From positions 38,698 through 102,697 of the forward strand of contig JABLTG010000055.1 of NCBI GenBank assembly GCA_016618085.1: a DNA stretch of 64,000 bases, given 5' to 3'. A model generated the notes under the pieces. That model saw nothing but the letters and a program-made list of their open reading frames with translations. It ran no database searches and was not told where the DNA came from. The stretch's first letter is position 1, and every line of letters begins with the position of its first letter. A program made the translations under genes and the position numbers. Source of the DNA: Neovahlkampfia damariscottae. Its lineage: Eukaryota; Heterolobosea; Selenaionea; Neovahlkampfiida; Neovahlkampfiidae. Positions 11,286-62,176 of the stretch are shown one piece after another.

Positions 11286-11371
11286 GGGAAAAGCTTCGAA
11301 TTTAAAAAAGAAGGTATTTAATTGGTTGTGTGAATTTTTCCGTTCGTTCACAAAACTAAAAAAACATAAAC

Positions 11372-12811
11372 ATGTCAACACAACAACAAACCACAGGAAG
11401 TTCTACTGAAACTTTCTCAGACTACAAAATTGCAGATATTTCACTTCATGAATACGGAAGAAAAGAACTTACTCTTGCTGAACATGAAATGCCTGGTCTT
11501 ATGGCTTGCCGTACAAAATACGGAAACGAAAAACCACTTAAAGGTGTTAGACTTTCAGGATCACTCCATATGACTATCCAAACTGGTGTTTTAATTGAAA
11601 CACTTAAAGAACTTGGAGCTGATATCAGATGGTGTTCATGTAACATTTTCTCAACACAAGATCATGCTGCTGCTGCTATTGCTAAAACTGGAACTCCAGT
11701 ATTTGCTTGGAAAGGAGAATCATTAGAAGAATACTGGGATTGTACATGGAAAACAGTTAACTTTGGTAACGGAAAAGGACCACAACTTATTGTTGATGAT
11801 GGTGGTGATGTTACTTTATTAATTCATCGTGGTTATGAAGCTGAAACAAAACCAGAAATCTTAGACAATGATGAAGGAAATGAAGAATTAGCATGTGTTA
11901 ACAAACTCATTAAAAGAATTTTAAAAGAAGATCCAAAAGCATTTTCAAAAATTGTACCTGATATTAAAGGAGTTTCTGAAGAAACAACAACAGGTGTTTT
12001 AAGATTATATCAAGCTGAAAGAGCTAAAAAATTATTATTCCCTGCTATCAATGTTAACGATTCAGTTACAAAATCAAAATTCGATAACGTATACGGATGT
12101 AGACATTCATTAGTTGATGGTATCATGAGAGCTACTGATGTTATGATTGCTGGAAAAATGTGTATGGTCTTTGGATATGGTGATGTTGGAAAAGGTTCAT
12201 GTGAATCATTAAGAGGACAAGGTGCTAGAATCATTGTTTCAGAAATTGATCCAATTTGTGCTTTACAAGCTTGTATGTCAGGACACACTGTAGGAACAAT
12301 TGAAGATTATGTTTCAAAAGTTGATATCTTTGTTACAGCTACAGGTAACTTTGGAATCATTACTGCTGAAATGATGTCAAAAATGAAAGATAAAGCTATC
12401 ATTTGTAACATTGGTCACTTTGATAATGAAATTGATTATGCTGGACTTAAAAACTGGCCAGGTATCAAAAGAATCAACATCAAACCACAAGTTGATCAAT
12501 GGGTATTCCCTGATGGACATTCAATCATCTTATTGGCTGAAGGTCGTCTTGTCAATTTAGGATGTGCTACTGGTCATCCAAGTTTTGTTATGTCAAATTC
12601 ATTTACAAACCAAACTTTAGCTCAAATTTCATTATGGAAAGAAACATACGAAGTTGGTGTTTATACTTTACCAAAAAAATTAGACGAAGAAGTTGCAAGA
12701 TTACATTTAGATAAATTAGGAGCTAAACTCACAGTTTTATCTGATGAACAAGCTAAATACATCAATGTATCAAAAGAAGGTCCTTATAAACCAAAAGAAT
12801 ACAGATATTAA
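11372..12811 (+). CDS. Adenosylhomocysteinase (S-adenosyl-L-homocysteine hydrolase)
   Basis: Cleaves S-adenosylhomocysteine to adenosine and homocysteine in the methyl cycle, in the cytosol, with bound NAD. Intronless, 479 aa, ATG 11372-11374. Conserved motifs are easily read: [47 protein letters not shown], the NAD-binding [19 protein letters not shown] and the C-terminal KxxxY tail (PYKPKEYRY). It contains the roughly 40-residue insertion typical of the plant/bacterial long form and many protists. It has no introns and uses more C-ending codons than neighbouring genes, consistent with high expression. Start and end are unambiguous. Confidence 0.97.
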
Positions 12812-39039: not shown

Positions 39040-40819
39040 TTATTCTTTATTTTCTTCATTTTTATCTTCTTCTTTTTTGTCATCATTTTTTTGAACTTTT
39101 TCTTCTTCTTTGTCTTCACTAGTTGTTTCTTTGATTTTTTTTTCATTTTCAATTTTCATGTTTTCTTCTTTTACATTTTTTTTTTCTTCTAAATTGGTAT
39201 CATCTTGTTTCACTTCTTCTTCATTTGTTTGTTCTTTTTTTACATCTTCTGAACTGTCAAAACCAGTTTCAAAATCTAATAATGTTGCAACTACATTTGT
39301 GTCCAAATTCTTCACTGGAATCTCTTGTAATACTTCAACTTCTGCTTGTGACACTTTTCTTTTTGATTCTTTTTCTTCAGTTTCATTTTTTGGTTTAATT
39401 TCAATTACACTTTTTTTGGCTAAATCAGCATTTTGAATTTGAAAAAATTGTTGAACAAAATCTAAATCTAAATACTTTCCACTTATTGATTTTATCCAGA
39501 CTTCTAATTGAACTCTTCTTTCTTGTATAAAATCTTGAGATAAATGATCAATAAAAATTGCTGGTTTTTTTTGTGGGAATCCAGGTAAACTACTGGCAAG
39601 AGCAGAGTCAGTCATTGAAAAATATTCTTTAAACTGATAATAAAAACAATTAAAAATCATCTTTTTTTTTCTTACTTTTTCGTGTAACCCATGAAAATCA
39701 CGATATCGTTTTGCGAGTGTATATTCAATATATTTAAAAGTTTCAGGATGTCTGCCTTGTATCTTTACCAAGTAAAGTGTTATCATAGTTCCATCAATTT
39801 TTTGATTTTCAGTTCCAACAATTTCACATTTTAGTGGAGCTTCTTCTGAGTAAGTATAATCTTCAAGAGAATGTGTTGATGAATTTATGACTTATTGAAT
39901 TTAGAATGAAATGATTCTTACAACCTTTAGATCTACGTTGTTTACTTGTTATTTCATAATATTTCTTTAAAACAAAAGCTGCCTGATTTTGTCCAAGAAT
40001 AGAAAGTTGAGTACTGACACCAGGTACTTCTAAAGTCAATAATTCTTCTTTTCCATTGATTTCTATAGCTGCATATTTCTTGTCTTTCTTTGGTGCAATG
40101 GATGCTGATCTCTTTGTTTCTTCTTTTAAAGAATCGGATCGAAGACTTGTGTTGATGGAAACTGTGACTTGTTCAACAACTTTCAGAGCATTTTCTAAGT
40201 TTTCATAATCCATATGATCTTTATCTGTATTTTCAATTAAAACTTTCAACAAGGTGGTGTATCTCTTTTAAAAAAAATTTTGTGTTAAAAAATTTTTTTT
40301 TTTCTATTTTACAGGCTAAAAAAAAAGGTTTAGAACATTTATGCATTTTTTTTACTATTCTTTGAATTGGCATGATCAAGTATGACCCAAATTGGAGTGG
40401 TGACTTTTTTCTTTGTTCTTCAATGAAACTGTCAAATTCTGGGTTTGTTTTTTTTTCATTTCTCAATAAAGTTGAGACATTTTCATAATTTAAGTAATAT
40501 TTTTGATAGGCTTTTAAAAAAGGTTGTTCTAACGCTATAAAACAAAGACCAACACATTCAGAACCTTCTATTGCGTTTTTGGCTTGAAATTTCAACTGTT
40601 CATTCAGTTCTGTATTTACAAATAATATTTCATCGTAGTTTGATTCCAAACTGTCAAGAATTACAGTTGAAAATTTTTTAGAATTTCTCAATGGAGTGAA
40701 ATAACACTTTGGTATTTAGATTTTTTTTTAATTACTGTTTGTAGATCTTGTAAGCTTTTCAAGTATCCCTCTTCAGTATCTAAAATCTCTTGAATGATTC
40801 TGCTTCGTTTTTGACTCAT
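39040..40819 (-). CDS. Rho guanine-nucleotide exchange factor (DH domain) with PX domain
   Basis: Predicted activator of a Rho/Rac-type GTPase, targeted to phosphoinositides by PX. Introns 39634-39675, 39891-39921, 40265-40312, 40316-40355 and 40707-40735 give 529 aa. The DH domain starts at once (RSRIIQEILDTEEGYLKSLQDL), passes LIMPIQRIPRYTTLL and ends near residue 190. The Pro of QRIPRY is encoded by a 3-nt exon (40313-40315) between two introns. A poorly conserved linker replaces a clear PH domain. PX follows (RRYRDF-type KRYRDFHGLHEKF, LPGFPQKK, RRVQLEVWI). The C-terminal 110 residues are highly charged, Lys/Glu-rich. ATG 40817-40819. Confidence 0.87.
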
Positions 40820-41938: not shown

Positions 41939-44900
41939 TTAATTACTTTGAAATGATCTATAATTGGTTGAATTTTCTTGAGCAACAAGTTTAACAAATT
42001 TATCTGGACATGACATTTTAATTCTTTCACAAGTTGCAGGTGAATCCATCAAGAAATAACCATCACAATTATTTTCTTTTCTGAATTCATAAATTGCATC
42101 TTTAATAGCATAAAAAGCAGCAGAAGCAAGAAATAAAGGAGGTTCTCCAACTGCTTTTGATCTCATTACAGCGTATTTATTTGGTAATTTTGGCATTAAA
42201 TGAACTGAAAAATTACGTGGAACATCATCTAAAGATGGTATTTTATAATTACCAGGTCCTCTTGTTAATAATGTTCCTGGTTTAACCCATTTATGTTCTT
42301 CATCTCCATAAATTAATTCTTCCATTGTAAAAAGACCTAATCCTTGAATAAATGCACCTTCAATTTGTCCAATATCAATTGATGGATTAATTGATTCACC
42401 AACATCCATGAATATTTCAGAATTTAAAATTCTAAAATCACCTGTTAAACAATCAACTTCAACTTCTGAATAACCAACTCCTTGAGTGAAATAACAAAAT
42501 GGAATTCCAGTTCCTTTTCCATCTTCTGTAAATGTATATTGTGTAATCATATCAGGTTTATAAAATCCTTGAGCTGATAAATTAATTCTATCAAAATATG
42601 CAGATGAAACAACTTCTTTAAATGTTGCATTTTTATTTTTTTCATAATATGGTTTTAATCTATTTTGTATTTGTTCACATGCATCTTGAACAGCTGCACA
42701 ATATAAATCAGAACCCATTGATGCTGCAGTTGGTGATGTATTAGGAACTTTATCAGTTGATGTTTCTGAAATAAAAACTGATTCAATTTCACAACCTAAA
42801 ATAGTTGCTGCAACTTGCATAACTTTAATATGTAATCCTTGACCCATTTCAACACCACCATGGGTTACTAAAACAGATCCATCTGTATAAATATGAACTA
42901 ATGCACCTCCTTGATTCAAAAATAATGCAGTAAATGCAATTCCAAATTTAGTTGGAATCATTGAAATTCCTCTTTTTTTTAATTTATTTTTTTTATTGAA
43001 ATCTTCAATTTCTTTAGTTTTCTTTTCAATATCTATTTTTTCTAATGCATCTTTCCAAATTCCATTGATTCTAAAAAAGTCAAGGGTTTGACCAAAATGT
43101 GTTTTTTCATTTTCTTTATAAAAGTTCATTTCTCTAAATTTATGTTTGTTTAATTTAAGTTCTGCTGAAACTTGATCCATAATATTTTCACAAATCATCA
43201 TTCCTTGAGGTCCTCCAAATCCTCTAAATGCTGTATTTGATGGTAAATTTGTTTTACAAACTCTTCCTGTAACTCTTAAATTTGGAAATTTATAACAATT
43301 ATCAATGTGAAATAATGATCGATCTAAAACTGATCTTGATAAATCTAATGAATACCCTGCATTATTATATACTTCAACATCTAAAGCAACTAATTTTCCA
43401 TCTTTTTTAACACCAACTTTATATTTTCCAAAGAATGGATGTCTATGACCTGAAAAACAAAAATCTGAATCTCTATTTAAAATTAATCTGATTGGTTGAT
43501 TTAAATCTTTGGCAGCCACAGCTGCTACAGCAGAAAGAGGGTTAGTTCTAGTCTCTTTACCACCAAATCCACCTCCAATTCTCTTAACCTTTGCAACTAT
43601 TTTATGATCACTTAATCCAAGAACATGTGCAACAACTTTTTGTGTTTCTGTTAAATTTTGTGATGAAGAAACAATCAACATTTCATCATTTTCACCTGGA
43701 TAAGCAATACATCCCATTGTTTCAAGATAGAAATGTTCTTGTCCACCCATTTTAATTTCTCCTTCAATGATATGATCACAGTCATTTTTGAAAGCAGCAT
43801 CAACATCACCATCATGAATTATACCCTCTGATAAAAATGATTTTTGTTTAATTGCTTCATCAATTGATAAAATAGCAGGTAATTCTTCATATTTAACTTT
43901 AACTTTTTTTGATGCAAATTTTGCTTGTGCTTCAGATTCTGCAACAACAAGACCAATAATTTGACCAATAGAAGTAACTGTTTCTGTAATGAAAACTTCT
44001 TCATCTGGAATAATAGCTCCCCATTTATTTTCACCTTGAACATCTTTTGCTGTATAAAAACCAACAACTTGATCCATTTTTAATGCTTCAGATGCGTCAA
44101 TTTCAATAATTTTTCCATGAGGAATTGTTGAAAAAACAATAGCTGCAAATAATTCATTTTTAGCTAAAGGTACATCATCTGTATAAGTTGCTTGTCCTGT
44201 AACTTGTAAAGGTCCTGAATTATGCATTTTTGAGATACCAACTGAAGTACCTTTTTGAACTTTATCAAATGTTTGTTCCATTTTGAATTTTGTTTTTTTA
44301 TCTTCTTCATCACCTTCTTCTGTTAAAATACTCTTTAAATCTTCAGGTACATTATTCAAACATTCATGTGAAACTTTTAAATAGAATTTATAAAAAAATG
44401 TTAAAACTAAAGCTTGTCTGAAATGAGGCATTCCTCCTGGAACTTGAACATCAAGTTTGAATTCACTTGATAAAATTTGTGTTGCTTCTTCGAATGTTTT
44501 ATCATTCCATGATTTTCCAATTAAAAATTCTTCAGTTTTTTTTGCACATTTTGTAATGATTGACATGCCACCGTATGCCAAACCAACTTCTTCAACAATA
44601 AAGTCATCTTTTACTTTGTTTAATTTAACTCTTAATCCACATGTGACAATAGCAATATCATCTTCACGTCTTCTTGCTTGTTTAAATGGAAGAACAAATT
44701 CATTTTCTCTTGTGTAAGGAACATCTAATAAATGTAAAAAAAAAAAAAAGTTATTCTCTTACAAATGGATTCAATGATTTCATCTTCTTTTAAATCAGTT
44801 TTTCTGTATCCTAAAAAGAATTCTCTAATTGGTAATTTTCTTGAAGTTCCATCTGTTTTAACAATTTTTAAAATTGCATTCTTTTTAAAATTTAAGAATC

Positions 44901-62057: not shown

Positions 62058-62176
62058 GCTTACGGCCATACTTAGGAGAATACACCGCATCCCGTCCGAT
62101 TTGCGAAGTTAAGCTCCTACAGGCTCTCCTAGTACTAGGGTGGGAGACCACCTGGGAACCGGGAGTGTTGTAAGCT
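62058..62176 (+). rRNA. 5S ribosomal RNA gene
   Basis: About 119 nt with all hallmarks of eukaryotic 5S rRNA: GCTTACGGCCATAC at the 5' end, CATCCCGTCCGAT, GAAGTTAAGC (box A region), CTAGTACTAGGGTGGGAGAC (loop E and box C region) and CACCTGGGAA. The first six bases GCTTAC pair with GTAAGC near the 3' end to close helix I. A T-run follows directly. GC content is far above the flanks. It is a single isolated copy, not in a tandem array or next to other rRNA genes. Expected to be transcribed by RNA polymerase III from the internal promoter. Confidence 0.97.

Follow-up and report, generated by a model that had tools for sequence, protein, structure and literature searches.

The RhoGEF-PX locus

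The window, a stretch of 64,000 nucleotides of contig JABLTG010000055.1 from the heterolobosean Neovahlkampfia damariscottae, contains on its minus strand, at 40819-39040, a gene that is modelled with six coding exons and encodes 529 residues. Both PF00621 (RhoGEF, in two pieces) and PF00787 (PX) match within this one gene, which makes it a PX-bearing member of the RhoGEF (DH) family; RhoGEF and PX are also both given for a single protein record, P0003, which is discussed below. The five introns (29, 40, 48, 31 and 42 nt) are all GT-AG. The features of the gene are as follows:

40736..40819, minus strand: coding exon 1, ATG at 40819 (gene model; P0003 has the identical start methionine)
40707..40735, minus strand: intron 1, 29 nt, GT-AG (gene model; P0003 residues agree over the join)
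40356..40706, minus strand: coding exon 2, 351 nt, 3' end ...MPIQRI (gene model; Pfam RhoGEF PF00621)
40316..40355, minus strand: intron 2, upstream of the predicted microexon, 40 nt, GTAAAA...TTTTTTTTTAG, with a branch-point-like stretch, TTCTAAAC
40313..40315, minus strand: predicted microexon CCT, 3 nt, a single proline codon, both borders in phase 0 (spliced-form scores)
40265..40312, minus strand: intron 3, downstream of the predicted microexon, 48 nt, GTAAAA...TTAAAAG (bases read directly)
39922..40264, minus strand: coding exon 4, 343 nt, starting RYTTLLK (gene model)
39891..39921, minus strand: intron 4, 31 nt (gene model; P0003 residues agree over the join)
39676..39890, minus strand: coding exon 5, 215 nt, start of the PX domain (gene model)
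39634..39675, minus strand: intron 5, 42 nt (gene model; P0003 residues agree over the join)
39040..39633, minus strand: final coding exon, 594 nt including the stop, remainder of PX and an acidic tail (gene model)

The neighbors of the gene are a cyclin-like gene and a xanthine-dehydrogenase-like gene, the long open frame of the latter (xanthine-dehydrogenase/aldehyde-oxidase-like protein) lying at 41939-44758 on the minus strand. Elsewhere in the window, on the plus strand, are a long open frame for S-adenosylhomocysteine hydrolase (11360-12811) and a 5S ribosomal RNA gene (62058-62176; Rfam RF00001, 102 bits).

A sequence-only reading of the window had proposed that the bases CCT form an exon of their own within the segment 40265-40355, and its description of these bases was accurate: the 91 nt consist exactly of intron, CCT and intron. 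Read on the minus strand, CCA ATT CAA AGA ATA is followed by GTAAAAAAAATGCATAAATGTTCTAAACCTTTTTTTTTAG (40 nt, 40355-40316), CCT (40315-40313), GTAAAATAG...TTAAAAG (48 nt, 40312-40265) and then AGA TAC ACC ACC. Inclusion of CCT yields the spliced string CAAAGAATACCTAGATACACC and skipping yields CAAAGAATAAGATACACC, the junction without CCT being ...CAAAGAATA-AGATACACC; both forms preserve the frame. With an upstream AG and a downstream GT, a length well within the 15 nt taken as the limit for microexons, and an inclusion product in which the conserved protein sequence is restored, CCT has the sequence properties of an internal coding microexon. A stwintron or zero-length recursive splice site was considered and rejected, as one codon (three bases) is left in the favored parse.

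Intron lengths and the splice sites around CCT

The genome assembly is AT-rich and comprises 20.4 Mb in 307 contigs. Introns were surveyed in 54 RhoGEF domains and in 40 intron-bearing Ras-family loci; the latter derive from a search with 154 matches, from which 60 places were taken, 20 of them open (used for the profile) and 40 showing signs of introns. Counting an intron as unambiguous when it contains a stop codon or has a length that is not a multiple of three, we obtained 159 such introns with a median of 35 nt, of which 155 measure 26-46 nt. The four longer ones are 60, 72, 107 and 147 nt, the last two both stemming from the misparsed locus L023. A further 19 calls were ambiguous: 17 of these are 30-45 nt long, while the remaining two, of 129 and 141 nt, are probably coding insertions. 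Of 161 introns of up to 50 nt, 85 contain a YTRAY-like branch site. The 72- and 60-nt introns, in the loci L108 and L111, share a P-loop site, each has an inner TTTCCAG, and they are the sole clean introns above 46 nt in the survey besides the 48-nt intron of the window.

Measured against this distribution, the 40-nt intron is of normal size, as had been stated for both introns, while the 48-nt intron lies just above the usual range; a single intron of 91 nt, described earlier as twice the usual length, would have about 2.6 times the median length. Ranked from the weakest among 68 training introns (described below), the 40-nt intron has a donor of rank 52 and an acceptor of rank 22, and the 48-nt intron a donor of rank 39 and an acceptor of rank 5. 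This fifth-weakest acceptor and the length of the 48-nt intron count against the CCT exon.

Of 20,000 dinucleotide-shuffled versions of the interior, with both introns required to be at least 27 nt, 46 contained AG-CCN-GT and 324 AG-any sense codon-GT; none had a proline codon whose inner splice sites together scored as high as the real ones or higher. If the segment were one intron, the inner AG-CCT-GT would have to be a coincidence.

Homologous proteins at the proline position

Across an alignment of 57 DH domains, made up of the window model, 54 paralogs and the proteins P0001 and P0002, the proline column has no gap, and 46 of the 57 read QR[ILVM]PRY; the paralog sequences in this alignment are themselves the product of the same spliced aligner. 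P0001 has a DH-PX layout like that of the window gene, is 46% identical to it across 98% of the query, and reads YLIMPIQRIPRYATLLK (QRIPRY) at the motif. Because the tree places it with the window gene (100/97 support), we regard P0001 as its probable ortholog on the basis of the sequences compared.

A protein search, in which a two-sequence alignment served as the query, returned 12 other proteins, among them P0001 and P0002, and excluding the gene's own record, P0003; all 12 carry a residue at the proline position. Together with the 54 paralogs, the residue is thus present in 66 of 66 compared relatives. The intersectin structure alignments (three shown, with 60 of 61 matches listed) have a threonine at this position and no gap. 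A search with the PX part alone yielded 1980 candidates, none at E 0.001, P0003 being above the length limit of that search and of the one behind P0001.

These alignments also bear on the notion that the locus is a pseudogene or an assembly error. No positive sign of either was found, 529 codons are open across five GT-AG introns, and the RhoGEF-PX gene model aligns with P0001 through both domains, so that we give this explanation almost no weight.

Scoring of spliced forms

To score the ways in which the site could be spliced, all GT/GC-AG introns of at least 20 nt around it were enumerated (26 introns, 38 spliced forms), and a profile was built from 28 paralog segments (46 motif places, 29 of them open, one dropped for intron read-through). 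The form that includes CCT ranks first among the 38 with 73.7 bits, and skipping scores 60.8 bits, 12.9 lower; forms retaining one or both introns score 49.8, 20.3 and 19.0 bits.

Spliced-profile alignment gave a result that depended on the intron model. With a flat intron cost, and with neither a splice-site model nor a length model, the aligner opted for a 91-nt intron plus the loss of one residue over CCT, a result that counts against the exon. An aligner trained on 68 paralog introns of up to 60 nt, with the window and L023 left out, reversed this choice and parsed exons of 63, 351, 3 and 114 nt. Barring the CCT acceptor costs this aligner 11.1 bits, the parse with CCT scoring that much above the best parse without it, and this is the lowest gain among the ten counted exons of up to 15 nt described below.

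As a control, real introns were swapped for shuffled introns of double length and one codon was removed. In the 675 mock introns the trained aligner invented 31 exons of 1-15 nt, 13 of them of 3 nt; only one invented exon matched or exceeded a gain of 11.1 bits, the runner-up standing at 11.0. When 3, 6 or 9 bases were taken out in an earlier run, 5, 6 and 6 of 135 trials produced non-zero inventions. Zero-nt "exons", that is, back-to-back introns, appeared in 56 of the 675 mock introns; we attribute these to the length model, as a by-product of it, and left them out of the count.

A protein record without the proline

The sole predicted protein found for the RhoGEF-PX gene itself, P0003 (EukProt, 528 residues, gene5711-9531_t), is identical to the gene model at every residue except for the proline, which it does not have: QRI is joined to RY. 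It corresponds to a single 91-nt intron; its outer splice sites match those of the gene model, as do the three remaining introns. The sequence-only reading had named transcripts joining ATA directly to AGATAC as evidence that would speak against the exon. P0003 touches on this point in part, since it makes that join, but it is a protein record rather than a shown transcript.

P0003, which goes against the CCT exon, thus embodies the reading in which one 91-nt intron is removed and the mature protein has QRI-RY, a CR3 motif one residue short. This reading keeps the frame, agrees with the choice of the flat-cost aligner, and can point to the unambiguous 60- and 72-nt introns as proof that longer ones exist. 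Yet no other clean intron reaches 91 nt, the spliced form loses on the paralog profile by the margin given above, and the residue is absent from none of the 54 paralogs and none of the 12 other proteins. Furthermore, annotation is known to miss exons of up to 15 nt: in a plant study, most of the 2,398 microexons of this size reported were unannotated (PMC8831610). Because annotation often misses such exons, the absence of the proline from P0003 would reflect a limit of annotation, and the name of the record, as we read it, resembles that of a gene prediction. We therefore think it improbable that a single 91-nt intron is the correct structure. Gene models in such genomes may silently drop residues, as P0003 appears to do for one found in every relative compared.

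Alternatively, both forms could be made, with regulated inclusion or skipping of the proline codon tuning the exchange activity of the DH domain. The frame is intact either way, and an alternatively spliced 3-bp exon, equal in length to CCT and likewise one codon, is known from Drosophila homothorax (PMC7392893), whereas the exon described here is read as constitutive. However, nothing examined bears a sign of regulation, loss of one residue inside a conserved motif would be unlikely to leave a working domain, and the commonest mode of alternative splicing outside animals is believed to be intron retention (PMC6142364). We consider regulated inclusion very unlikely, more so than the single intron.

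A probable constitutive 3-nt exon and its proposed splicing

The 3-nt microexon proposed by the sequence-only reading is supported by the top profile score among the 38 forms, by the ungapped column of the 57 DH domains and by the QRIPRY of P0001. We hold with considerable confidence that the RhoGEF-PX gene has a constitutive 3-nt internal exon, CCT, which encodes the proline of the CR3 motif QRIPRY, and that its flanking introns are removed in turn. The splice sites, the frame, the support from profile and homologues and the other very short predicted exons are all read from sequence; from them we infer the inclusion of CCT in RNA, the order of splicing, intron definition and the origin of the exon.

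In the mechanism that we favor, each of the two short flanking introns would be recognized across the intron, and one would be removed after the other. Should the 40-nt intron leave first, the product ATA-CCT|GTAAAA would retain the donor of the 48-nt intron; should the 48-nt intron leave first, TTTTTAG|CCT-AGA would retain the acceptor of the 40-nt intron. As removal of either intron leaves the sites of the other intact, the CCT exon would need no length of its own. The intron would be a natural recognition unit where introns measure about 35-48 nt. The earlier suggestion that such an exon calls for "near-zero exon definition" therefore appears to set the question in the wrong frame, because small introns can be recognized across the intron and removed in either order, and recognition of this kind should suffice. 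By the standards of this genome the CCT exon seems unremarkable, and it accords with splicing by intron definition.

Most likely, the exon originated when two introns came to be separated by three bases, exon size in this genome being nearly unconstrained. Within the 12 nt coding for R-I-P-R, introns of the RhoGEF family occupy six distinct positions out of 29 in total (P 0.003 under uniform placement); they belong to the window gene, which has two, and to ten paralogs, and are dispersed across the tree. Explaining the 11 rows that have an R-I-P-R intron takes 10 changes on the tree, which is no improvement over shuffled labels and suggests repeated gain or loss of introns at this spot; through such repeated events, two introns could have arisen three bases apart.

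Other predicted very short exons in the genome

Very short exons were also predicted, from sequence, at other loci of the two families. Eight of the 40 Ras-family loci have a predicted exon of up to 15 nt:

L110: predicted exon of 5 nt, DL of NKIDL
L084: predicted exon of 6 nt, VWD of WDTAGQE
L116: predicted exon of 6 nt, GQE
L101: predicted exon of 8 nt, GQE
L111: predicted exon of 9 nt
L102: predicted exon of 12 nt
L103: predicted exon of 13 nt
L100: predicted exon of 15 nt

The gains of these eight exons range from 14.7 to 34.1 bits; the Ras profile was rebuilt with the same loci, so that their own parse is favored. DTAGQE and NKxD are invariant GTPase motifs, and the predicted exons of L110, L084, L116 and L101 (5, 6, 6 and 8 nt) each supply a portion of WDTAGQE or NKxD. 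Among the RhoGEF domains, L043 (G000:C127:1300-4400, minus strand) has a predicted 9-nt exon, GATTACCAA, in the QRxPRY motif itself, with a gain of 23.9 bits; it lies between introns of 38 and 31 nt, each at a site common to other paralogs.

Several further short-exon calls were not relied on: those of 15 nt in L016 (2.1 bits), 24 nt in L024 (11.8), 23 nt in L081 (2.0), and 17 nt in L100 (2.5) and L105 (4.9), as well as a 19-nt call in L095 (29.6 bits), which exceeds 15 nt. Two other RhoGEF loci, L009 and L013, have three domains apiece within 8 and 6 kb, in one orientation.

PF15230, which we take to be the SRRM eMIC domain of the animal SRRM4-type neuronal microexon program, has no match in the genome, and it has none in 14 control genomes either. 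Five candidate FF-domain matches lie on two contigs and may be set beside the elegans work of PMC11463390.

Placement of introns and the lower limit of exon size

The frequency of very short exons was compared with random placement of introns. Of the 55 RhoGEF domains, 50 entered this comparison, including that of the window; L016, L020, L023, L024 and L027 were dropped beforehand, in-frame insertions in them having been judged misread as introns. Because the L016 domain was dropped, its 15-nt call is outside the ten exons counted. Under uniform placement, 3.1 exons of up to 15 nt are expected in the 50 RhoGEF domains and 2 were observed, one of them that of the window; for the 40 Ras loci, 6.0 are expected and 8 were observed. 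For the two families together, 10 were observed where 9.1 are expected; a count of 10 has a 95% Poisson range of 4.8-18.4. When the expectation is instead based on intron sites pooled across other loci, it is 2.8 for RhoGEF, 11.1 for Ras and 13.9 together. With 10 observed against 9.1 or 13.9, there is therefore no strong depletion of exons of up to 15 nt, although a depletion of about half (two thirds relative to the pooled sites) would still be compatible with these counts.

At larger sizes, the RhoGEF set has 6 exons of up to 60 nt, compared with 11 expected (lower tail 0.03 uniform, 0.01 pooled). Relative to the pooled sites, the 30- and 60-nt counts are low in both families, the other three lower tails being 0.05-0.07. 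Purely random placement does not fit all of the counts.

The lower size limit on exons nevertheless looks weak or absent in this genome, and the occurrence of other predicted exons nearly as short as CCT suggests that splicing here makes hardly any demands on the exon itself. A stronger version holds that no lower limit to the size of internal exons can be detected, that introns of 26-46 nt are placed by chance, that exons of 3-15 nt, some with invariant catalytic residues, occur at the frequency of random placement, and that splicing needs nothing from the exon; we find ourselves evenly divided over this version. The larger lead is the genome itself, in which numerous few-codon exons are predicted, about as often as chance placement would produce them. 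Whether an exon must have a minimum size where introns are the recognition units is, to our knowledge, an open question, for which a genome rich in exons of one to five codons could serve as a natural test bed.

Relation to known microexons

A search of the open-license literature, covering mostly titles and the starts of abstracts, returned no report of abundant exons of up to 15 nt in a protist; none of five exon-size terms occurs in a ciliate paper (PMC5014332), and PMC3162530 describes a gene-structure tool. Exons of this kind are known from other organisms, and CCT would belong among these very short microexons, being, on the sequence evidence, very likely real.

Like the single-nucleotide exon of Arabidopsis APC11, the CCT exon is ultra-short, internal and read as constitutive; the APC11 study considers exon definition very unlikely and suggests intron definition with recursive splicing (PMC4674806). 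However, the plant exon has 1 nt and was shown experimentally, whereas here an exon of 3 nt is proposed for a single-celled eukaryote from its sequence. The plant microexons of 1-15 nt noted above are usually included and located in conserved coding sequence as well as mostly unannotated, as CCT appears to be (PMC8831610). They number 105-302 per genome and occur in 0.61-1.07% of genes (six table rows), compared with 8 of 40 Ras loci here, rates that are not directly comparable because the Ras loci were chosen for showing introns and their exons are predicted.

A parallel in reasoning is the one-nucleotide exon of Fusarium CYP621A, which was likewise inferred from an intron of double length and a gap in a conserved motif (PMC12940212). 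There, a base was missing from the motif, an intronless relative served as a length marker, and reads later confirmed the exon. That exon has 1 nt and was found in 20 orthologs, in contrast to the 3 nt and one probable ortholog of the RhoGEF-PX gene.
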